DNA of 64,000 nucleotides from Mytilus galloprovincialis (taxonomy: Eukaryota > Mollusca > Bivalvia > Mytilida > Mytilidae): the NCBI RefSeq assembly GCF_965363235.1, contig NC_134850.1, forward strand, positions 34,693,102 to 34,757,101, written 5' to 3'. Below are positions 1,325 to 57,840 of the stretch, piece after piece. How positions within the stretch are numbered: the first letter of the stretch is position 1; each line of letters starts with the position of its first letter. The notes beneath the pieces are model-generated. The model made no database searches and had not been told where the DNA came from. It was given only the letters and a program-made list of their open reading frames with translations. Position numbers and translations under genes: made by a program.

Positions 1325-1822
1325 AACCGATTTTCCAGATAATGCTACAAAACAGTTGACCCTGATATGTGTCAATCCTCAGTTGTTGAAGTATAAAAAA
1401 AAAAGAGGAGAACGAACGAAAGATATGGTGTTACAATAAGAAAAGTTATAAACGATAAAGAATAAAATAATAATCTAACCAATAATTTGCAATATAAAGT
1501 ATCTTAAGGTCTGTGCAAAATTGGTGGCCACATTTCTATTATTAATACATAATTAAATGAAAATATCGAACACAGAATCTATAAACATAAAACTAGGAAA
1601 CACAACCGCTTGATATTTAGGAACGGTGCGTATTTATGATTTTGAATTCCATTTTTAATTCATCTAGAAACATACTTTGCAAATCGGCGCATATTTGGTA
1701 TACTGTAAACGCACTCATTTTCGCCATTTTCAATTTTTCTTGTTTAACAACATAAAGTAAATTTAAATATCGAGAAAGTAACGTCTACGAAGTGCACTAG
1801 AAAGTCCTAATTGTTAACAAAG

Positions 1823-2107
1823 GTACCAGGATAATAATGTAATACTATGCGTTTCGTCTACATAAGACTCATCAATTACGCTCAGATCAAAATAGTTATA
1901 AAGCCAAACAATAACAAAGTTGAAGAGGACCCAAAATTCAAAAAAGTTGTGCCAAATTAAGCTAAGGTTTTCTATTCCTGGGATAAGAAAAATACTTCTT
2001 TTTTTTTCTCGAAAAATTCAAAGTTTTGTTACAGGAAATTTATAAAAAAAAAAAGAAGACTATATAATTGATATTCAGGTCAACACCGAAGGGCTGACTA
2101 CTGGTGA
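1823..2107 (-). repeat. Decayed hammerhead-bearing (retrozyme-like) unit
   Basis: A diverged single copy of the 357-bp unit of 27.5 kb, alignable from 'aggtaccaggat' to 'gggctgactactgg'. On the minus strand the hammerhead stem II (GTCTTATGTAGAC) and GAAA survive. The core reads TTGATGA (C3 changed) and the stem III/cleavage segment is lost, so self-cleavage is not expected. The UUCG-type hairpin near 2080-2099 keeps most of its pairs. Confidence 0.8.
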
Positions 2108-16063: not shown

Positions 16064-16423
16064 GATAAAAAAAAAAAAAAGACAACAGTGTCGTATTCAG
16101 GGGGCATAGAAGACATACTCCCCCTTTGACTAAATTTTTTTTTTACATTATTTTGTCCGGAAAATAAATATCATATACTATATGTACCCTTTTGTGGAGT
16201 AACGCACCCTTTCAAATACCTGGAACTGCCTCAGAACAACACCATGACTGTGCAAAAGGAAAAACCCTTGAAAATGACAAGCAACAAAACACTAATGAAC
16301 CCGTCAAAAATGGGATGAAGTCAGGAGTTCCAGAATGGTATTTAGTTTTGGCTCCATTTGTAAAGTTAGAAAGTGAAGAAAAGGTGTAAAATTTGTTTCT
16401 GGATGTATATTCTGTTATAGTTT

Positions 16424-16850
16424 CAATAACAATGTACTTAATTAGACTCAATGTTTCAATGACAATATACTCAATTAAACTCAATGTTTCAATGACAATG
16501 TACTCAATTAGACTCAATGTTTCAATGACAATGTACTCAATTAGACTCAATGTTTCAATGACAATGTACTCAATTAGTCTCAATGTTTCAATGACAATGT
16601 ACTCAATTTGACTCAATGTTTCAATGACAATGTACTCAATTTGACTCAATGTTTCAATGACAATATACTCAATTAGACTCAATGTTTCAATGACAATGTA
16701 CTCAATTAGTCTCAATGTTTCAATGACAATGTACTCAATTTGACTCAATGTTTCAATGACAATGTACTCAATTTGACTCAATGTTTCAATGACAATATAC
16801 TCAATTAGACTCAATGTTTCAATGACAATGTACTCAATTAGACTCAATGT
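16424..16850. repeat. Minisatellite, 13 x 33 bp with higher-order structure
   Basis: Thirteen copies of a 33-bp unit of the form 'gactcaatgtttcaatgaca' + 'atgtactcaatta'. Variants at the 'tagact / tagtct / ttgact' and 'atgtac / atatac' positions show that units 5-8 and 9-12 are the same four-unit block, a 132-bp higher-order repeat. As 33 is a multiple of 3, a frame stays open through the array on both strands (an 11-residue LIEYIVIETLS repeat on the minus strand). That explains the 211-codon minus ORF without requiring a protein. Confidence 0.95.
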
Positions 16851-17305
16851 TATATCTCTGATTAATTATTGTTGTTTGTTGAATGTTGAGGGTCATATGT
16901 TCCATGCATATTCAAGAAGAGAACGATCTAATATTAATCCATTCTTAGGTTCTGACACATTTATAACATATTCACACCTTCGGGTGACATCATCAATTTT
17001 CCTTTTCCCGTCGTTTTTAATCAAATATATACATGAGTATACTTGAAAGTGTTAACATAAAAGAAGATGTAAATCATCTGTGGTGGTCATTTTATCAGAT
17101 GGAATGAAATAGTACTGACATATTATTTTTCTGAGGACAATTTTATTTTTATTATTTTCAGTGAGAAGTTTTCAAGATATTCAAACCAGATTGAAGTTAT
17201 AGGTCTAACCATTATTTTATTCACGACAAATTTGATGGTAGCTGCGTGTATCTGTCTTTGAGAATAATTTCAAGCAGAAGGACATACCTCCTTTTTGTTT
17301 AACAG

Positions 17306-17326
17306 TGATACAATTGAAGTGGAGAA
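17306..17326 (+). promoter_or_regulatory. Likely spliced 5' UTR segment before the GPCR start
   Basis: A pyrimidine-rich tract ending 'ctttttgtttaacag' at 17305 is a good acceptor 21 bp upstream of the ATG. The receptor would then have a 5' non-coding exon upstream and an intronless coding sequence. Confidence 0.4.
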
Positions 17327-18478
17327 ATGAATTTTTTACTAACGTATAACAGCACACTGATAATGGAATTAACAACTAGTATTTTCAACACATCGCATTT
17401 CAAGCATTTATACTTTCAACACAACGAAGAACCCTTTTGGAACCCCGCTCTCCAATCGATAAGTCTAAAGTACATGGGAGTACATGGTTATCTTAGTCTA
17501 TTCGTATGCTTCTTCGGGATTCCAACCAATGTCATAAACATAACTGTGCTGACCCGGAAGCACATGCAAACACCAATCAACTTCATTCTAACGTCAATGG
17601 CCGTGTTTGACATTCTGACAATGTGTTCGTATGTCCCGTTCGCGCTTCATTTCTATTGTCAGTATCCGTCTGGGTATATATCAGAAGAGAAAAACTCGTA
17701 TGGATGGATGATGTTTTTGATCTTTCATGTCAATTTCTCGGCAACTGCTCATACTATATCGATATGGCTAGGAGTTTCAATGGCTATATTTCGATACCGC
17801 CATATTCATTCGCCCGCAAAAGGGTCGTTAACACGCATGCGCCGTCTTATCAGAGCAAGGTTAGTTGTGTTTGTGATAATTATTGCGTCTGTGATATTGA
17901 TGATTCCGAATTACATGTCAAATAAATTGGTTAGATATCAAAACACGACCATGTTTATTTTACGCGATCTCGAATTAGGGACACCTCATGTCCGAGCAGT
18001 GGTTATGATGAATCTTATGTTGTATAGTTCACTCGCAAAAATCTTTCCTTGTATTTTAATGATTATATATGGATCCATGTTGCTTAAAACAGTAAATCGC
18101 CGATTGCTTGCAGTTTCCCGCAAAGTGAAACGCGGGGTGTTTTCCAACAAACCAAGAGACACATCGAAAACAACAACTATGTTGTTGACAGTCATTGTTC
18201 TTTTCCTACTGACAGAGTTTCCTCAAGGAATATTGATTATACTCAGTGTAGTTTTAAAGGGATTTTTCGACAACGTGTACATTCCTCTCGGAGATGCGAT
18301 GGATATTTTAGCTCTTATAAACAATGCTATAAATTTTATTCTTTATTGCTCTATGAGCGGAGAATTTAGGCGGACACTTAAGAAATTATTTTGCACTTTT
18401 AAAAGACGGAAGTCTAAAAATGTTATAATTGATTTTCAGAGAGAGCGCACTCAGTCTACATGGCTCAGTTTGAAATAA
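17327..18478 (+). CDS. Class A neuropeptide GPCR, DMSR-1 / sex-peptide receptor-like
   Basis: 383 aa, one exon, with seven hydrophobic segments at about residues 53-76, 83-107, 126-155, 174-196, 223-252, 283-310 and 318-344. The predicted role is a plasma-membrane receptor for an FMRFamide/myosuppressin- or MIP-type peptide signalling through a G protein. Family signs: GIPTNVINITVL in TM1, MAVFDIL with the TM2 Asp (D95), FRY (155-157) in the DRY place, FLLTEFPQGIL in TM6, and NFILYCSMSGEFR at the end of TM7 instead of NPxxY. All are typical of the DMSR/SPR group (Srw-like). N-glycosylation sites lie at N8, N21 and N206. The C-tail is short and basic. C111 precedes TM3, but the TM4-TM5 loop has no Cys, so the usual extracellular disulphide appears absent. 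The first ATG (gagaaATGa) was chosen; M13 is an alternative. The exact ligand cannot be told from sequence. Confidence 0.93.
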   Translation: MNFLLTYNSTLIMELTTSIFNTSHFKHLYFQHNEEPFWNPALQSISLKYMGVHGYLSLFVCFFGIPTNVINITVLTRKHMQTPINFILTSMAVFDILTMCSYVPFALHFYCQYPSGYISEEKNSYGWMMFLIFHVNFSATAHTISIWLGVSMAIFRYRHIHSPAKGSLTRMRRLIRARLVVFVIIIASVILMIPNYMSNKLVRYQNTTMFILRDLELGTPHVRAVVMMNLMLYSSLAKIFPCILMIIYGSMLLKTVNRRLLAVSRKVKRGVFSNKPRDTSKTTTMLLTVIVLFLLTEFPQGILIILSVVLKGFFDNVYIPLGDAMDILALINNAINFILYCSMSGEFRRTLKKLFCTFKRRKSKNVIIDFQRERTQSTWLSLK

Positions 18479-26663: not shown

Positions 26664-26849
26664 AAATATAATTATTTCTGTGACTGTATCTTACATTAAT
26701 TTGTAGGATCCTTTACTATAAACAATTTAGCTGATCTGTAAAAATAACATCGTCTTGCCTTATATATCATGTACTGTAGTACGACGCTAGATTAAAACTG
26801 GTGTTGAAAGGTAACACCCGGCCACCGAAAGCTTCATTTTTATGAAGCC

Positions 26850-27106
26850 CAGGTGGTCGTGTGGTCTAGCGCGCCGGTTACAGTGGAGGCGATTTGGTGT
26901 CACGATATCTCAGTAGCATGGGTTCGAATCCCGGCGAGGGAAGAACAAAAAAATTGCAAAAGCAAATTTACAGATCTAGTATTGTTGGGTTGATGTTTAG
27001 ACGAGTTGTATATACAGAATGTACACAGCCATTTATCACCACCAATACTGGTGATCCGATGTATAAATCTAGTGTAGAGTTGTCACTGGTTCAGACGTAT
27101 TTATAC
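26850..27106 (+). mobile_element. tRNA-derived SINE, copy 2 (left palindrome arm)
   Basis: Head 'agcccaggtggtcgtg', A-box-like 26862-26873, B-box 26931-26941, body ending at 'cagacgtatttata'. Confidence 0.82.
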
Positions 27107-27124
27107 ATATATATATATATATTT

Positions 27125-27384
27125 ATATATACGTCTGAGTCAGTGACAACTCTACAACAGATGTATCCATCGGATCGCCATCAATGATGGTGATACATGG
27201 CTGTGTACATAATGTATATACAACTCGTCTAAACATCAACCCAACAATGTTAGATCTGTAAATTTGCTTTCGCAAATTTTTGGTTCTTCCTTCGCCGGGA
27301 TTCGAACCCATGCTACTGTGATATCGTGACACCAAATCGCCTGCACTGCAGCCGTCCCGCTAGACCACACGACCACCTGGGCTC
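27125..27384 (-). mobile_element. tRNA-derived SINE, copy 3 (right palindrome arm)
   Basis: Inverted copy of 26850-27106 with scattered substitutions. B-box complement at 27298-27308; head at 27384. Confidence 0.82.
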
Positions 27385-27493
27385 TTACTAAAAAGAGCTT
27401 TCGCTGGCCGTGTGTTACCTTTCCTCGTCAGTTTTAATCTAGCGGCGTACTGCAGTACATGATATATAAGGCATGAAGATGTTTACTATAGAT

Positions 27494-27850
27494 AATAGTT
27501 ATCAAAAGTACCAGGATTATAATTTTATACGCCAGACGCGCGTTTCGTCTACATAAGACTCATCAGTGACGCTCAGATCAAAATAGTTAAAAAGCCAAAT
27601 AAATACAAAGTTGAAGAGCATTGAGGATCCAAAATTCCAAAAAAGTTGTGCCAAATATGGCTAAGGTAATCTACTCCTGGGGTAAGAAAATCCTTAGTTT
27701 TTTCGAAAAATTCAAAGTTTTGAAAACAGAAAATTTATAAAAATTACTATATAATTGTTATTCATGTCAACACCGAAGTGCTGACTACTGGGCTGGTGAT
27801 ACCCTCGGGGACGAAACGTCCACCAGCAGTGGCATCGACCCAGTGGTGTA
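27494..27850 (-). mobile_element. Retrozyme-like unit 1 (357 bp, tandem)
   Basis: First of a tandem series repeating every 357 bp (phrase 'aatagttatcaaaagtacc' at 27494, 27851 and 28208). The minus-strand RNA would carry a hammerhead (27529-27572) and an 8-bp hairpin capped by UUCG (27766-27785). A further stem, CTGGTG/CACCAG enclosing GGACG/CGTCC, lies at 27793-27826. There is no ORF. Tandem, non-coding, hammerhead-bearing units of this size are the hallmark of retrozymes, which spread through self-cleaved circular RNA. Confidence 0.85.
27529..27572 (-). ncRNA. Type I hammerhead ribozyme, copy 1
   Basis: Reading the minus strand: stem I 5' GCGTCA (27572-27567), core CTGATGA, stem II GTCT-loop-AGAC, GAAA, stem III ACG-CG-CGT, cleavage base C (27535), stem I 3' TGGCGT (27534-27529). 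Every invariant core base is present and all three stems pair. Predicted cleavage is between 27535 and 27534. Stem III is very short, as in retroelement hammerheads that work as dimers. Confidence 0.9.
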
Positions 27851-28207
27851 AATAGTTATCAAAAGTACCAGGATTATAATTTTATACGCCAGACGCGCGT
27901 TTCGTCTACATAAGACTCATCAGTGACGCTCAGATCAAAATAGTTAAAAAGCCAAATAAATACAAAGTTGAAGAGCATTGAGGATCCAAAATTCCAAAAA
28001 AGTTGTGCCAAATATGGCTAAGGTAATCTACTCCTGGGGTAAGAAAATCCTTAGTTTTTTCGAAAAATTCAAAGTTTTGAAAACAGAAAATTTATAAAAA
28101 TTACTATATAATTGTTATTCATGTCAACACCGAAGTGCTGACTACTGGGCTGGTGATACCCTCGGGGACGAAACGTCCACCAGCAGTGGCATCGACCCAG
28201 TGGTGTA
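27851..28207 (-). mobile_element. Retrozyme-like unit 2 (357 bp, tandem)
   Basis: By eye identical to unit 1 over its length. Two adjacent cleavage sites bound a 357-nt monomer RNA. Confidence 0.85.
27886..27929 (-). ncRNA. Type I hammerhead ribozyme, copy 2
   Basis: Same 44 nt as copy 1, 357 bp further on; core, stems and cleavage C intact. Confidence 0.9.
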
Positions 28208-28427
28208 AATAGTTATCAAAAGTACCAGGATTATAATTTTATACGCCAGACGCGCGTTTCGTCTACATAAGACTCATCAGTGACGCTCAGATCAAAATAG
28301 TTAAAAAGCCAAATAAATACAAAGTTGAAGAGCATTGAGGATCCAAAATTCCAAAAAAGTTGTGCCAAATATGGCTAAGGTAATCTACTCCTGGGGTAAG
28401 AAAATCCTTAGTTTTTTCGAAAAATTA
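28208..28427 (-). mobile_element. Retrozyme-like unit 3, truncated and joined to RT sequence
   Basis: Matches the first 220 bp of the unit, then switches at 'cgaaaaatt' (28427) to reverse-transcriptase-derived sequence. The last ~40 bp of the unit ('acgaaacgtccaccagcag' onwards) resumes at 28882. Confidence 0.85.
28243..28286 (-). ncRNA. Type I hammerhead ribozyme, copy 3
   Basis: Intact 44-nt motif identical to copies 1 and 2. The distance to copy 4 is 714 bp, exactly twice the monomer. Confidence 0.9.
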
Positions 28428-28881
28428 TTTTAGCTGATCTGTAACAATAACATCTTCATGCCTTATATATCATATATATTTCAGACACTTCTCAAAAACA
28501 AGAACATAAAAAAACAGGTCTTTTAATTTCCCTTTCAGATATAAAGATGATGATCTTTCCATTATCAATCCAAACGTTTCCATTAATATTTCCTCCAGAA
28601 CTATAGATTAAAGAAATAACAGACACGGCTTTATCTGCCACATTTTAGACTTATACCTCGAATTTAACAAACACGGTCATCTCACTACCAGAAAAACTAT
28701 GACATACGAGATTTTGATTTTGAAACTATCCATTTCCGCCATCTTAGTAGCAATATATCAGATTCACCTGCATATTGAATATGCATTTTCCAACTTATTC
28801 GGTATTCAAAAGCTTCGATTTGCTACTCAGATTTTGTAATACGTCAACAGTGTCTGAACAAAAAGTTGATGAACCAGGGGG
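28428..28881 (+). pseudogene. Reverse transcriptase relic inside the retrozyme array
   Basis: Plus-strand sequence with frameshifts and stops still shows the catalytic-region echo (RYKDDDLSIINPN, from a Y-x-D-D type motif, about 28538), then FLDLYLEF-like LDLYLEFN (28650) and later blocks. It is the same element type as the minus-strand relic at 2.2 kb. It is inserted within unit 3 and duplicated with it at 29142. Confidence 0.7.
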
Positions 28882-29141
28882 ACGAAACGTCCACCAGCAG
28901 TGGCATCGACCCAGTGGTGTAAATAGTTATCAAAAGTACCAGGATTATAATTTTATACGCCAGACGCGCGTTTCGTCTACATAAGACTCATCAGTGACGC
29001 TCAGATCAAAATAGTTAAAAAGCCAAATAAATACAAAGTTGAAGAGCATTGAGGATCCAAAATTCCAAAAAAGTTGTGCCAAATATGGCTAAGGTAATCT
29101 ACTCCTGGGGTAAGAAAATCCTTAGTTTTTTCGAAAAATTA
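28882..29141 (-). mobile_element. Retrozyme-like unit tail plus unit 4 (truncated)
   Basis: 28882-28921 is the missing tail of unit 3. 28922-29141 repeats the first 220 bp of the unit. The join to reverse-transcriptase sequence at 29141 is the same as at 28427, so the whole 714-bp composite was tandemly duplicated. Confidence 0.82.
28957..29000 (-). ncRNA. Type I hammerhead ribozyme, copy 4
   Basis: Intact 44-nt motif, same sequence as copies 1-3. Confidence 0.9.
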
Positions 29142-30258
29142 TTTTAGCTGATCTGTAACAATAACATCTTCATGCCTTATATATCATATATATTTCAGAC
29201 ACTTCTCAAAAACAAGAACATAAAAAAACAGGTCTTTTAATTTCCCTTTCAGATATAAAGATGATGATCTTTCCATTATCAATCCAAACGTTTCCATTAA
29301 TATTTCCTCCAGAACTATAGATTAAAGAAATAACAGACACGGCTTTATCTGCCACATTTTAGACTTATACCTCGAATTTAACAAACACGGTCATCTCACT
29401 ACCAGAAAAACTATGACATACGAGATTTTGATTTTGAAACTATCCATTTCCGCCATCTTAGTAGCAATATATCAGATTCACCTGCATATTGAATATGCAT
29501 TTTCCAACTTATTCGGTATTCAAAAGCTTCGATTTGCTACTCAGATTTTGTAATACGTCAACAGTGTCTGAACAAAAAGTTGATGAACCAGGGGTATGTC
29601 AAAGAACATCTCAACGGTTTTTTTCAAAAAAGGTTCATCGGAAGGTACTAAGACCTTGTTGATAAATATTCCGTATCAACTTCTCAAATAATACACAATT
29701 GTCTTGGAGTATAGATTCTGGGTACTGACGGCGTTTGTCATATTCATAATGTCTTATGGTTTTCTTTCTTTGTCTTTTTGAGTATTACTAACACCATTTA
29801 GCCTGTTTTTAATGATATCCATTTGACGTGTCGCTGTAATTATATATACCGTTATTGTGCTATTGTATTTTTTATATTTTTTGCTGAATGTGCTTTACAG
29901 TATGCCTTATTAATATTCTTTAAGTTATATATTTGTTTCTTTTATAGTGATTAAGATTATAACACAACGTTGACTGCTGTACCTACAATTTACCTATAAT
30001 GTCTGTTTGTTTTGGACACACATCGTTGTCAATATAATGAAATCGTACGCGACTCTCATACAAACGACAGGATTAGCTAGCTTTAAAACCACTGTTAAAT
30101 CCACAATTTCTATATACGAAAATGTCTGTACCAAGTCATGAAATATGACAGTTATCTATTTGTTTGATTGTTTGCGCGTTTGATTTTGCCATTTGATTAC
30201 GGAAAATCCGTTCTAAATTTTCTTCAGAGGTCAGTGATTTTGTCATTTTAACTCTTTT
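29142..30258 (+). pseudogene. Reverse-transcriptase retroelement relic with its 3' tail
   Basis: The first ~440 bp duplicate 28428-28876. The copy continues past the duplication into the end of the RT domain ('aaggtactaagaccttgttg') and about 600 bp of 3' sequence ending in the family R tail (30150-30258: 'gattttgccatttgattacg'). Frames are broken throughout. No endonuclease domain was recognised. Confidence 0.7.
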
Positions 30259-30361: not shown

Positions 30362-31545
30362 CTAAATTGCTATATTTTCATAGCTTCATCTGTCGCATTT
30401 CGAGACTATAATACCTCAAATTTTTCATTAACGGTCATCGCAGTACCAGAATCTATGACACACGAGATGATTTTAGTTTTGAAATTATCAATTTCCCCCA
30501 ATTAGATAGCAGTATACCAACTTCACCTGCATTTGGGATATACTTTTACCAAATAATTCGTTATTCATGAGCTTGCAGTTGCTTTTACGTCACCAGTGTC
30601 TGAGCCAAAAGTCAATGAAATAGGGTATGTCAAAGAATGTCTCGTCCTTTTTCTAAAAAAAAATACAACGGAAAATACCAAAACCTTGTAGATGAAGTTT
30701 GCATATCAAGTTCTTAAATAATACACTACGATTTTGATGTACAGATACTAGGCACTGACGTTGTTTATCATTTAAATAACGTATTATTGCATTCTTTCGT
30801 TTGTCTTTGTCAATATTACTTTAACGGTTTATAGTTTGTTTTTGGAACTATCTATCTGATGTACTTATACAATTTGTGCGATAGTAAATTTTGTACTTTT
30901 TGTCTTTCGTGTTTACTAATGTGCATCGTTTATATGCCTTTTTGGTGTTTCTTGTTGACATATTTGGTTGGGTTTTTATTGTGTTAATTTTTGTGTAACA
31001 TTTCAACACTTGTGAAATATTGATTAAGATTATAACACAATGCTGACTGCTGTACCCCTATTTTTGACATGTTTACCTGTTATATTATGTATAATAAGAT
31101 GTGCTAATGAGGCAACTCTCCATCCATGTCATAATTTGTAAAAGTAAACCATTATAGTCAAAGTACGGGTTTCAACACGTTTTGGTTTACGTCGAACAGA
31201 AAACTTTGCGGGTCCCCAAAAATATTAGTGTAAAACCATTCAACAGAAATTATTGATCGTTTTTATATAGATTAAAACGTTGGTTAGTTTAATTGAATGG
31301 TTATGTTTTGAATATACATCGTTGTCAAAATAAGGATCTTTTTGTGAATGTCATACAAGTGAGATGTTTGCTCTGTATGCATCCAGGTCTAATCAACCAT
31401 TTTCTACATAAGAAAATGCCTTATCCAAGTCAGAAATAAGACAGTTTGTTATCAATTTGATTGATGTGTTTGCTTTTGCTTTTGTCATTTGATTAGGGAC
31501 TTTTCGTTTTGAATTTTACTTAGAGTTCGGTATTGTTTTGATATC
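30362..31545 (+). pseudogene. Second retroelement relic of the same family
   Basis: Diverged copy with the same order: 'gacacacgagatgattttag' block, 'aaaataccaaaaccttgtag', 3' region, and family R tail at 31390-31545. A family Q repeat sits inside (31088-31260) and is presumably a later insertion. Confidence 0.68.
31088..31260 (+). repeat. Dispersed repeat family Q
   Basis: 'aagatgtgctaatgaggcaa' through 'gtaaaagtaaaccattatag' to 'gtgtaaaaccattca', nested in a retroelement relic. Confidence 0.8.
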
Positions 31546-32378: not shown

Positions 32379-35300
32379 CTATAAACAGAAAAGTCACAAA
32401 ACCTTTTAATTTGCATTACGCATATCATTATGTTTACTCAAAATTAATCGCAAAATTGTGGGTATGTGTATTAGTTTTTGTTGAAATAACTTGGTGAACA
32501 AATAACGTACATAATATATTATAAAAGAATATATAAAAATAGGATGTGGTATGATTGCCAATGAGACAACTCTCCGAAAGAGATTAACATAACAACTATA
32601 GGTCATCGTACAACCTTCAACTATGAGCAAAGCCCATACAGCATAGTCGGCTATAAAAGGACCCAAATCTTGTTTTGTGTTTTGTTGTTTCTCTTAACGT
32701 CTATTTGTTTTACTTTTTTGCCACGGCATTGTCAGTTTATTTTCGGCTTATCAGTTTGAATATCCCATTGGTATTTTTGCCTCTCTTTAAATAGGTTGAA
32801 AATAATTTTTTTTTAATTTCTCAATTACTGGATTCTGTTTGTTACAGAGACGACACACGTTTTGTTACGTTGTAGTATGCAATTGTAGTGGTTTATTGTT
32901 TTGTTTTAAAACCAATCTGGTTCAATTAAGAGCACCGGAAGATACCAAACCCTTGTTGATAAAAAATCTGTATCAACTACATAAATAATGCATGATCGTC
33001 TTATGGTCTTGAAGTATAGATTATATGTACTGATCTTGTTTATCAGCATTATTTAGTGTTATGGTGTTCTTTTTATTTGTATTTGTTTGCTGTTTAGTCC
33101 GTTTTTTGTAATATACATTTGGCGGGGCTCGATATTTTCTTGGCTTTCAGTATTGCTTACGTACATTGTCTATAGAGTGTCTATATGCATTTTTTGCTGT
33201 TCTTTGTTTTACAGGTATTGATTAATGTTAATTATGTTAATAGCTGTATCAACATTATGACAATTTGACCTATTATGTCTGTTTGGGTTGCTTACACTTT
33301 GTTATCGAAATACTGGAATTATGTGCGACTGTCATAGAAGTGAATGGTTTAGCTAGCTATAAAACTTGGTTCTTACCACCATTTTCTACTCAAGGAACTG
33401 AGTACGAACTGCTGGTACCACATCCGAAATATGACAGTTGTGTCCATTCGTTTGATGTGTTTAAGCTTTTGATTTTGCCTTTTGATATAGGAATTTTTGG
33501 AATTTTGCTATTTTACTTTTTGCATAGTTAAAATTAAGTATGCAAATGGCTAGTGTGTCAAAGAGACAACAATCCAACCATAGAGCAGACAACAGCCGAA
33601 GTCCACCAATGGGTCTTCAAAGTTGGTTGAATTTGTTTGCTTTTTTTTTATTCAATCTTGTTTCAAGAAGGTACAGTGTGGTGAATTTCCGTTTACAACA
33701 AATCATCTAACATCATACACAAGTAGTTGAATTGTTTGTCTTTCAGAGGCTTACAGATTATGGCTAATATTCGATTATTTGTATGTTGTTTTATTCTGTG
33801 ACTTTTAAAACAGTTATATGATTGCTACAGACAAAATTACTTTAAGAAATACAAAATGTTTTACTATCAAAGGGTAAATCGTAAACTTTATTTTTACAGA
33901 TAATATTACCTGTATCTACACCAGTTAAATTCTTCCTTGGACGTCGTTCTATTGCACCGGGTCCATTTGCATACGCAATTGTTGTGTATGGTAAATTGTC
34001 TTTAGCCATAGAAACTTTTCCGTCATTTTTAACTAAACCTATGAATCAACATACAGGAATAAGTTATAATATTTACCTATTCAAATGACATTTTAGACAA
34101 ATAAGAGGATGTGGTATGATTGCCAATGAGACAACTCTCCCGAGACCAAAGTCTATATGTCTTATCATTATGATTTAATTATATCCTTGAAAAGATTTAG
34201 AGTAAAAGACTCGTGGATCTCCGTCAATAAAAAAAGCAATCAAGGTTAAATCGTTTTGCAATTGCAATTATCATATTAAAACAATTGTGTTGATCGTTTA
34301 TTAGATATACTGAACGGGATTATCAAGCTTTCGTGAAGTTCGAATAAGTTTCAATTCGCGAAAGACTACCATGTATTTTCCATTATGACTTCCTTGAAAG
34401 AGGGTTGCTGCTTACAAGGAAGGTACTGAACAACAAAGAATTCAGAAGTGGTGAATTTGAAATAAGACTTTGAACATTTTACGGACTCCATCACGAGTTT
34501 GTTGACCATTATAGAATATCTGTTTCAAGAATGACGATAGATATATTCCACCTGTTGTAACCAAAATCTCGTCCTCTTTTCCACAAACATGATCGACCGA
34601 ATACAGTAATCACTGGATTTGTAATTAAAAGAGCAGCACGACGGGTGCCGCACGTGGATAAGAATCTGCTTACACTTCCGGAATACCTGAAATCTCTCGC
34701 GGTTATAGGTGGAGTCAGCGTTGGGTTACTCAGTCACAAATTTTCTTTGATGTGTCTGGTGTACTGCTGGGGTATTTTTTGTAGTCTTTTGTAATGATAT
34801 TGTCAGTTTGTTTTCGAGTGTAAATATTATTTTGGTATATTTAGCTTCTCTTCTATAGTTCGTAAGGGAGAGTATTGGTTACAGATTATATAACTGAGTT
34901 GTTATGCTAGCCTAAGAACTAGTTGTGTCATAATAAAGATATAAGAAGATGCAGCATGAGTTCCAATTAGACAACTCTCCATCCAACATGTCCAAGTTTC
35001 AGTTTGTGCATTGTGCAGACTTAACTTAAAAATGCCTGTTTAAAAGTAAAACGAATGGTATCAAATATAAAGTAAGATCCGCTTACCCTTTCAATGTATC
35101 TGTATTGTTTAAGATAAAGGAAACTTGATCTTTCTATTTTTCATCGATTAATGATTTGTTATTGTCCGCTTGGCACAATACATCTTGACAATAATGTGTC
35201 TCTTTTTTATAAGGCATGTTTTAAAAGATTTCCAAAACAATACTGATAATGTCACTGTTGTATACAGATAATATAAGTATTTGACAATTTTGCAGGGCAC

Positions 35301-55985: not shown

Positions 55986-57840
55986 TTATGATATGAAGTT
56001 AATGTTCACATATAGTAACCATGTAATAATGAATGTCATGATAAATGTACGCAATGGATTTTTATTGTGCATCAAACGCTGAGCTGAATTTCCGGTTGAT
56101 CCTCTTCTGTTTATAGGTATCCGTCTAAACACGGAAGTTGTTACAGTCGATCCAATTTTAGTATGGTCTATATTCACATTTATACTGTTGTGGTTAGGAA
56201 TCTGTATTATCTGAATTTGGGGTTTACTTCCGCAAGGCAGGGCACTTGCATCAGTGACCACTGAAACGCAAGAAATTAATTAGTTTTCTGCAAATCTTTT
56301 TAGTGCAAGTGATTTATTCTTTATAGATATATCAGTTTTATGTAGTGAATTTCCAGTATGCAATTAAACATATATATTAGGTAATGAACCAAAGCTGACT
56401 ATGCGGTATGGGCTTTGCTCATTGTTGAAGGCCGTACGGTGACCTATAGTTGTTAATGACTGTGTCATTTTGGTCTTTTGTGGATAGTTGTCTCATTGCC
56501 ATCATACCACATCTTCTTTTTTATACTATATACGGTACACAATTATTTTACCACCGACGTCATTACGTTTAACATGTTGATAAGACTGCGCAACGGCAAA
56601 TACATGAAATCTTCTTGTCATTTTTTATTGCGATTTTTCTCGAGTTCTCGAATCTAAATTTCGCTTCCATTTCTGATATTGTATACCCTGTATTATTTTG
56701 GTAATTGTAGAATCTTCGTTTATAATATACAATGTATGTCAAAATAAATTTAGTTCATATCGTAACAGTTCAACCATTGATTCTTGGGCCATAAGAGACC
56801 AGCTCTTTAAAAGAGAAACAAGTGATAATTATGATGGATTTCTTATTGAAAGCATATTTGTTGATTTTTAAGGTAGGCTTTTTCAACAAAAAGTCAGCAT
56901 TTCTATTGGAACTAACTGTGCGCCTTTCCTTCCCGAAAATACCTGTACCAATTGAAGTCAGAAATATGACAGTTTTTCTCCATTCGTTTGATGTATTTGA
57001 GCTTTTTATTTCGCTATTTGATTAGGAACTTTTCGATTTGAATTTTTCTCGGAATTCAATATTTATCTGAATTTACTATTTCCCGACCTCATTTTTTTTC
57101 CATATTAGTCTATGTTCCTTCATACACTTGTTAAAAACAAGAATATTAAAGAAGCTAGATCAATTAATTTCACATTCAGATATATTGATAATGTTCTTTC
57201 TATTTATAATCAACACTTTTAAATGTTGATTCCAGAACTAGAGATTAAACAAACAACAGACACGGCTTCCTCTGTCTCATTTTTAGACTTATACCTCGAG
57301 TTTCACATAATTTCCCACACCTTAGTATTAATAGACTAACTTCAGCTACACAGAATATATATTACCCAACGTATTCAATATACAAGAGCTTGCAGCTGCT
57401 ATACATGCATCGCTGTACCACTATTTTTTTTTATTTTTCACTGGTCCAGTATTATGTCTGTTTGTTTTATTCACCCATTGTTGTCATTTTAATGGAATTT
57501 TTTGCGAGTGTCATACAAGTGAGAGGTTTAGCAAGCAATAAAAACGGGTTCTATCTACCATTTTCTACATAGGAAAATGCATCTACCTAGTCACGAATAT
57601 GACAGTTGTTGTCCATTCGTTAATTGTGTTGGAGCTTTTTTTTAACATTTGATTATGGACTTTCGGTTTTGAATTTTTCTAGGAGTTCGGTATTTTTTTA
57701 TTTTACTTTTTACACGTGGCTATGGTCTGAAGTTTAATAACTATACTTTATATCAATTAAATATCTGCATACATACCGTTAATTCCCTGTAGTAAGAAGC
57801 AAAGTATTGCACATAGGACACATGTTCCTGGTATTGACAT
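55986..57840 (-). CDS. Small secreted or membrane-tethered protein, two exons, 112 aa
   Basis: Not recognised. Exon 1 is 57777-57840, exon 2 is 55986-56260. Exon 1 starts at an ATG directly after 'ttaatttacag', encodes MSIPGTCVLCAILCFLLQG (a convincing signal peptide) and ends in phase 1 before donor GTATGT. Exon 2 follows acceptor 'cttgcgtttcag' and continues the frame for 90 aa to a stop; the total, 339 nt, is a multiple of three. Exon 2 has one Cys in ALPCGSKP, a polar middle and two dibasic sites (VFRRIPINRRG). It ends in the hydrophobic tail TFIMTFIITWLLYVNINF, which could be a GPI signal or membrane anchor. The intron holds retroelement, family P and family R copies. No clear AATAAA follows. 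It could also be a relic exon pair; transcripts would decide. Confidence 0.55.
56390..56523 (-). repeat. Dispersed repeat family P
   Basis: 'ctatgcggtatgggctttgc' to 'ataccacatcttctttt'. Inside the intron of the small secreted-protein gene. Confidence 0.87.
56925..57080 (+). repeat. Retroelement 3' tail fragment (family R)
   Basis: 'ttcgctatttgattaggaac' and 'tttttctcggaattc'; directly upstream of another relic of the same element. Confidence 0.72.
57105..57725 (+). pseudogene. Retroelement relic: RT core, 3' region and tail
   Basis: 'cagatatattgataatgttc' encodes a YIDNVLS echo of the catalytic YIDD motif; 'agagattaaacaaacaacag' and 'ttagacttatacctcgag' follow, with an internal deletion, then the family R tail at 57470-57725. 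Opposite strand to the host gene. Confidence 0.7.

Follow-up and report, generated by a model that had tools for sequence, protein, structure and literature searches.

The closest described system comes from the same mussel. In the available part of Cervera and de la Pena 2020 (PMC7229834), retrozyme circles of Mytilus galloprovincialis are described, a cloned mussel repeat self-cleaves at about 0.1 per minute, circRNA is proposed as the template and Penelope-like elements are named as the candidate driver. As far as that part of the text goes, this defining paper on animal retrozymes leaves open the route by which the RNA returns to DNA and the enzyme that takes it there. For the enzyme of an anole Penelope-like element, internal initiation has been shown in vitro, and according to the available part of that paper the start sites match the 30-40 bp tail of the genomic copies (PMC11167929).

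This study was concerned with one array of short repeats in a 64,000-nt stretch of M. galloprovincialis DNA, here called the window, and with its relatives in the genome. The analysis supports placing the array among the metazoan non-LTR retrozymes, already published from this species. The initial annotation of the window had read it as a retrozyme array, and this reading is upheld by the type I hammerheads, by a non-coding tandem unit of 357 bp, by the thousands of copies dispersed in the genome and by ends that resemble those left by retrotransposition.

Hammerhead ribozymes in the window

Four identical type I hammerheads had been annotated on the minus strand, with an Infernal search against the Rfam models as the proposed check. 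The cmscan program, run on 26800-29800, confirmed all four with minus-strand matches to RF00163 (Hammerhead_1), each at 33.0 bits (E 1.1e-5), and the copies are indeed identical. The Rfam gathering score for Hammerhead_1 is 34, and a default Rfam scan of the window is empty because the hammerheads score 1 bit below it. A regular expression for the core and stems, run on both strands of the 64-kb window, found only the same four sites. The motif consists of CUGAUGA and GAAA, with a stem I of 6 bp that includes a G-U pair, a stem II of 4 bp and a short stem III. Reading of the core and stems places the predicted cut after C, between 27535 and 27534, as annotated, and the spacings of 357, 357 and 714 between predicted cut sites are also correct. 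Unit positions are numbered u1-u357 in RNA sense (minus strand), with u357 at 27494 and u1 at 27850. The hammerheads are as follows.

27529-27572, minus strand: type I hammerhead 1 (RF00163 33.0 bits, regular expression); predicted cut between 27535 and 27534 (u316 and u317)
27886-27929, minus strand: type I hammerhead 2 (RF00163 33.0 bits, regular expression); predicted cut between 27892 and 27891
28243-28286, minus strand: type I hammerhead 3 (RF00163 33.0 bits, regular expression); predicted cut between 28249 and 28248
28957-29000, minus strand: type I hammerhead 4 (RF00163, regular expression), in a duplicate outside the tandem array; predicted cut between 28963 and 28962

A type I hammerhead is therefore present in every unit by RF00163 (4 of 4 copies). 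Two hammerhead copies co-fold as a canonical double hammerhead at -29.5 kcal/mol through the palindrome ACGCGCGU. For the lone 44-nt hammerhead, the hammerhead fold was not predicted (z 0.85; -5.7 versus -9.2 for the best fold). Given the modelled double-hammerhead co-fold, cutting would be favoured in multimers and disfavoured in the finished circle. The circular fold of the unit is only weakly better than shuffles (z -1.7, 100 shuffles), and a stable circular fold was dropped as supporting evidence for this reason. Mean minor-allele frequency across 37 arrays is 0.0050 in the ribozyme region (u270-323) and 0.0183 in the rest of the unit. In the same arrays u1-60 and u151-180 are as low in variation as the ribozyme region, so low ribozyme variation is not by itself evidence of selection.

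Layout of the array and the 714-bp duplication

The TRF program reports a period of 357 with 2.6 copies and 100% matches. The uninterrupted array spans 27494-28426 and holds two full 357-bp units and 219 bp of a third. The four annotated units are thus only partly in tandem: three hammerheads lie in one array, but the fourth lies in a 714-bp duplication that joins retrozyme to flank. The array had been described as free of open reading frames, and in our check of stop-to-stop frames of 120 aa or more none overlaps it. The duplication has a period of 714 and is perfect, with GGG common to both copies at the join. As the fourth hammerhead sits in a retrozyme/flank duplicate, the relation 714 = 2 x 357 is read as a coincidence. 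The sequence predicts that a minus-strand transcript of the locus would be cut into one chimeric piece of 714 nt and two units of 357 nt. The parts of the locus, together with an older copy elsewhere in the window, are listed here.

27494-27850, minus strand: retrozyme unit 1 (TRF, BLAST, junction reading); 27494 is the array 3' end
27494-27534, minus strand: 41-nt tail u317-357, from the predicted cut to the array 3' end
27851-28207, minus strand: retrozyme unit 2, identical to unit 1
28208-28426, minus strand: 5'-truncated unit 3, u139-357 (BLAST, junction reading)
28164-28880, no strand: duplication copy 1, 717 identical nt; 263 bp retrozyme and 454 bp flank
28878-29594, no strand: duplication copy 2, 717 identical nt; retrozyme part 28878-29140
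28426-28468: host-repeat sequence in the duplicated flank
28519-28877, plus strand: decayed reverse-transcriptase sequence in the flank, duplication copy 1 (tblastn with the L031 reverse-transcriptase fragment, E 1.9e-13)
29406-29699, plus strand: decayed reverse-transcriptase sequence in and beyond duplication copy 2 (tblastn, E 5.1e-19)
1809-2104, minus strand: old single retrozyme copy (u60-357, 79.7% identity), ribozyme changed, 3' end u357

Several other observations were made in the window. A palindrome at 26746-27483 has two 369-nt arms, 87% complementary, with no spacer; each arm carries a tRNA-like B-box sequence by eye, ARAGORN found no tRNA in the palindrome, and microRNA matches at 27046-27183 were taken as its artefacts. 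The host repeat of this palindrome carries another retrozyme array at locus L061. Further decayed reverse-transcriptase pieces lie at 2184-2381, 30430-30723, 34354-34548 and 56848-57402. Several copies of one element end at the same CTCTT sequence, with 3' ends at 1310, 24386 and 54030. A minus-strand open frame of 217 codons contains a 33-bp repeat of 13 copies (16420-16851), and a 386-aa open frame at 17318-18478 (plus strand) resembles a seven-helix receptor, by eye only.

Dispersed copies and the sample of arrays

The genome searched is a 1.385-Gb assembly of 331 contigs. The 357-bp unit gave 145 matches from the 40 candidates scored out of 2,677 first-look candidates, and the full-length matches have 93-100% identity. 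An exact 30-mer (u313-342) occurs in 2,366 copies genome-wide. The family is spread over contigs C1-C14 with differing flanks, and it has the form of tandem non-coding units within the range of about 150-450 bp in many dispersed copies.

Thirty-six regions around listed matches were fetched, and 41 array pieces were read in these and the window. Three of the 41 fall outside the junction set, with 3' ends at u98 (a nested insertion, L031), u44 (the break of the window duplication) and u87 (L040). Four of the remaining 38 have repeated flanks and were left out, which gives 34 independent arrays; since these were drawn from the matches with the best scores, they represent recent copies.

Ends of the arrays

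The RNA-sense 3' end lies at u355-361 in all 34 independent arrays and at u355-357 in 28 of them. The individual counts are 7 at u355, 9 at u356, 12 at u357, 2 at u358, 1 at u359, 2 at u360 and 1 at u361, where array bases past u355 may be chance matches to the target. Ends at u355-357 are 39-41 nt beyond the predicted cut. Genome-wide, unit sequence breaks off directly after u355-357 at 260 places. An equally stringent control placed 20 nt upstream gave 0 places, with the probe region present at least 2,366 times. Among the 100 listed of the 260 end places there are 60 different 7-base continuations, so some of the 260 are copies of one insertion. The array piece L040:1986-2522 is the exception, and its 3' end at u87 may reflect a second start site or a deletion that came later.

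The 5' ends of the 34 arrays are scattered over u4-u349; for L031 the 5' end was counted as u97, the edge of the nested insertion, and the outer 5' end is u193. The cleavage site was considered as a preferred 5' end, since 4 of the 34 arrays begin at u315-322, which looked enriched (binomial 0.007; 0.004 for the 2 at u317), but pattern counts over the whole genome give it no support, with 3 at u317, 7 at u322 and 3 at u336. As a 3' end the cleavage site was likewise rejected, with 0 of 34 arrays ending there. The genome pattern for a 3' end at the cut has 89 matches, a count that is unusable as such and was judged by eye on 10 listed matches; these comprise 5 variants with one base deleted, 3 with substitutions in stem I and 2 that could be junctions. 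A fixed 3' end, variable 5' truncation and independent sites, the features of target-primed reverse transcription, are thus all found, with L040:1986-2522 as the exception.

Flanks and empty sites

The flanks of the 34 arrays are unrelated within 300 bp, except that the arrays of the window and L061 are inserted at different points of the same host repeat. Among the sequences analysed, paralogous empty sites (70-94% identity) were found for 7 of the 34 arrays, and their junctions were read by eye. About 5 bp are duplicated at L032 and 3-4 bp at L057. At L036, the weakest paralogue, about 6 bp are duplicated and the 5' side carries about 9 nt of filler. The joins at L052 and L060 are blunt, L061 has lost 4-6 bp and L045 has 10 extra nt. 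Matches resembling target duplications (TSDs) have a mean of 4.44 nt versus 3.72 in permuted pairs, with 0 of 1000 permutations as long. Only 9 of the 34 arrays have a match of at least 6 nt (permuted mean 2.6, maximum 8), and the window's own match is 3. As for the retrozyme features of no LTRs and, where target duplications occur, a length above 4 bp, there are no common ends across the 34 flank sets, and duplications are short and variable. Judged from these sequences, the variable junctions would fit target-primed insertion better than an integrase.

Some retrozyme copies on different contigs or at different places (L033/L038 and L045/L051/L058) have 98-100% identical flanks. From their sequence these copies are read as probable passengers of other dispersed repeats, or as segmental duplications. 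In addition, L050 has two identical arrays 4,670 bp apart.

Variation within and between arrays

Mean unit identity is 0.991 within arrays (23 multi-unit arrays) versus 0.972 between arrays (one unit each, 37 arrays). Differences within arrays were counted in 22 of the 23 multi-unit arrays, the second L050 array being left out. In these 22 arrays 89 differences are private and 23 are also seen in other arrays; of the latter, 17 are in the two last columns of the terminal unit and 6 are elsewhere. On this pattern an array looks like repeated copies of one template unit, mutated afterwards. The initial annotation had put the identity of the copies down to recent spread or active homogenisation. 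Later homogenisation could imitate near-clonal arrays, but it explains their identity less well than the copying of one template at insertion (89 private differences versus 6).

Search for the driving enzyme

The 357-bp unit is not itself a Penelope-like element, which would encode a reverse transcriptase with a GIY-YIG endonuclease, in that it has no frame of at least 120 aa. Elements with a GIY-YIG domain are present in the genome (147 matches from the 150 scored of 1,001 candidates, with frames up to 911 aa). No hammerhead was found beside one such element in the two pieces read, of 801 and 601 bp.

A second, very abundant reverse-transcriptase (RT) element gave 99-100% identity in 150 of 150 scored matches, with 60,982 first-look candidates. 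Its RVT_1 score is 17.7 bits, below the cut-off, and its listed open frames reach 1000 aa. Five head-to-tail pairs are spaced 3,369-3,371 bp, so the element is found in tandem, as is the retrozyme. At C13:34759973, 2.9 kb past the right-hand edge of the window, there is another copy.

Head-to-tail pairs of the abundant RT element: G000:C1:100090862, C8:61213479, C9:10311336, C9:48480311, C12:57989155

Between the 3' end of this element and that of the retrozyme 12-13 of 20 bases agree (empirical p about 0.001), an agreement that was noticed post hoc and is weaker at other lengths (p 0.05 at 15 nt, 0.02 at 40 nt). An exact tail common to the retrozyme and an autonomous element was rejected: the exact 22-nt tail occurs outside the retrozyme context at 3 places only, and the genome search found no abundant element that carries it. 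A 956-bp piece of RT element is inserted inside the retrozyme array at L031:3357-4312. This RT sequence, which splits the array, had suggested that the retrozyme is a solo pseudo-LTR of a Penelope-like element. That reading was dropped, since the stretch is a separate 956-bp insertion and its copies elsewhere end at the same base. The reverse-transcriptase fragment had no meaningful match in the PDB.

Proposed mechanism and alternatives

A linear self-cleaved monomer would end at u316, and the arrays run past u316 to u355-357 and beyond one unit; thus this monomer is not the template. With the linear monomer excluded, a circle and an uncut multimer are left as templates, and on a circle, which lacks a 3' end, the enzyme must start internally. 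We consider it probable that the family is a non-LTR retrozyme inserted by target-primed reverse transcription, with an internal start on a circle or uncut multimer and clonal arrays as the product. Minus-strand transcripts would fold hammerheads that, from their structure, are expected to cut between u316 and u317, and a host ligase, as published mussel work suggests, would close the released units into 357-nt circles. At a chromosomal nick, a reverse transcriptase would then copy the circle, or an uncut multimer, from an internal start at u355-357, some 40 nt downstream of the cut; the arrays do show the fixed end, which would mark this start. The enzyme would run round the template once or several times and stop anywhere, so that the resulting near-clonal array would be fixed at its 3' end and ragged at its 5' end. 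The window array would represent about 2.6 such laps, inserted in a palindromic host repeat that lies next to decayed reverse-transcriptase sequence, and a later 714-bp duplication would have copied part of the array with its flank.

A narrower form of this mechanism has a Penelope-like enzyme make many laps of a circle from a fixed internal start about 40 nt past the cut. Each array would then be the record of one circle, and the role of the hammerhead would be to supply a template without ends. We advance this form tentatively, at somewhat less than an even chance. Clonality mildly favours the circle over the multimer. The alternative template, an uncut linear multimer from an older array with circles as a by-product and the start still internal at u355-357, seems rather unlikely, although it has a precedent: in the available part of PMC11167929, unprocessed RNA is the dominant substrate of the anole Penelope-like element and ribozyme mutants have no effect on insertion in vitro, which by analogy would favour the multimer. 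The lack of a 5'-end excess at the cleavage site suits a multimer, and it suits a circle equally. Aged arrays, however, should transmit mixed units, and only 6 non-terminal shared variants were seen beside the 89 private ones; young, homogeneous parents would remove this objection. The 18 full units of the L059 array are also many for an RNA in which every unit carries a ribozyme.

Amplification at the DNA level, by unequal exchange or by reinsertion of an extrachromosomal DNA circle with the ribozyme as a passenger, would also produce tandem homogeneous arrays, and the perfect local duplication in the window and the identical pair at L050 are in line with it. Under it, neither the combination of a fixed 3' end and ragged 5' ends nor the finding of unrelated sites that hold short or single-unit copies would be expected, and it is considered improbable. 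That the repeat is a satellite carried within a larger transposon, for instance one of the Helentron type, is more improbable still. Oyster Helentron elements are reported to contain satellite arrays, in the part of that literature available, and some retrozyme copies do travel inside other repeats (L033/L038 and L045/L051/L058, by their shared flanks); yet the 34 arrays have distinct 5' flanks and, within 300 bp to the left or right, no element ends in common. Least probable of all is an assembly artefact. The perfect 714-bp duplication is a join that an assembler could make, so an artefact is conceivable for the duplication only; the family itself is on contigs C1-C14 with different flanks.

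The preferred reading, internal-start reverse transcription on a circle or multimer, bears on the return of the RNA to DNA. On the template, the fixed 3' end, the ragged 5' ends and the near-clonality of the arrays offer a concrete answer, and they call for an enzyme that starts internally. Each array could be read as the fossil of one RNA molecule.

Comparison with known systems

The retrozyme class, and quite possibly the window's own family, is already published; the insertion anatomy is the part for which no report was found in the searched literature, with regard to the fixed 3' end, the 40-nt offset and array clonality (supplements and most subscription papers lay outside this search). 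The published mussel retrozyme, in the available part of PMC7229834, also consists of type I hammerhead tandem repeats, of about 350-390 bp, and like the window family it has thousands of copies, no LTR and no coding frame. The two may well be one family, a likeness drawn from description. The same part of that account gives no fixed 3' end, 40-nt offset or array clonality.

Plant LTR retrozymes, as far as the available text of PMC7761336 describes them, likewise carry hammerheads in repeats, produce circular RNA and are mobile as non-autonomous retroelements. They differ in having type III hammerheads, LTRs, a primer binding site, a polypurine tract and 4-bp target duplications, which that text does not report for animal repeats. 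The schistosome SMalpha-type repeats are short, non-coding type I hammerhead repeats, called SINE-like and mobile in the part of PMC8490949 available, and they differ from the window family in sequence and host.

Parallels in insertion anatomy are seen in hammerhead Penelope-like elements of anole (PMC11167929) and Adineta (PMC3846280), in the available parts of both papers. As in the window family, the copies are in tandem and the hammerhead lies upstream of the RT start, which in the window family is the proposed one. They also match in internal initiation, as proposed for the retrozyme, in a 30-40 bp tail beyond the repeat, in short or missing target duplications and in AT-rich targets. Unlike the retrozyme, these elements code for their own enzyme, and no sequence relation between the two is shown. 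The start also differs in position: from the numbers in the available part of PMC11167929 it lies about 85-92 nt past the cut in the anole element, and the proposed start in the retrozyme lies about 40 nt past the cut.
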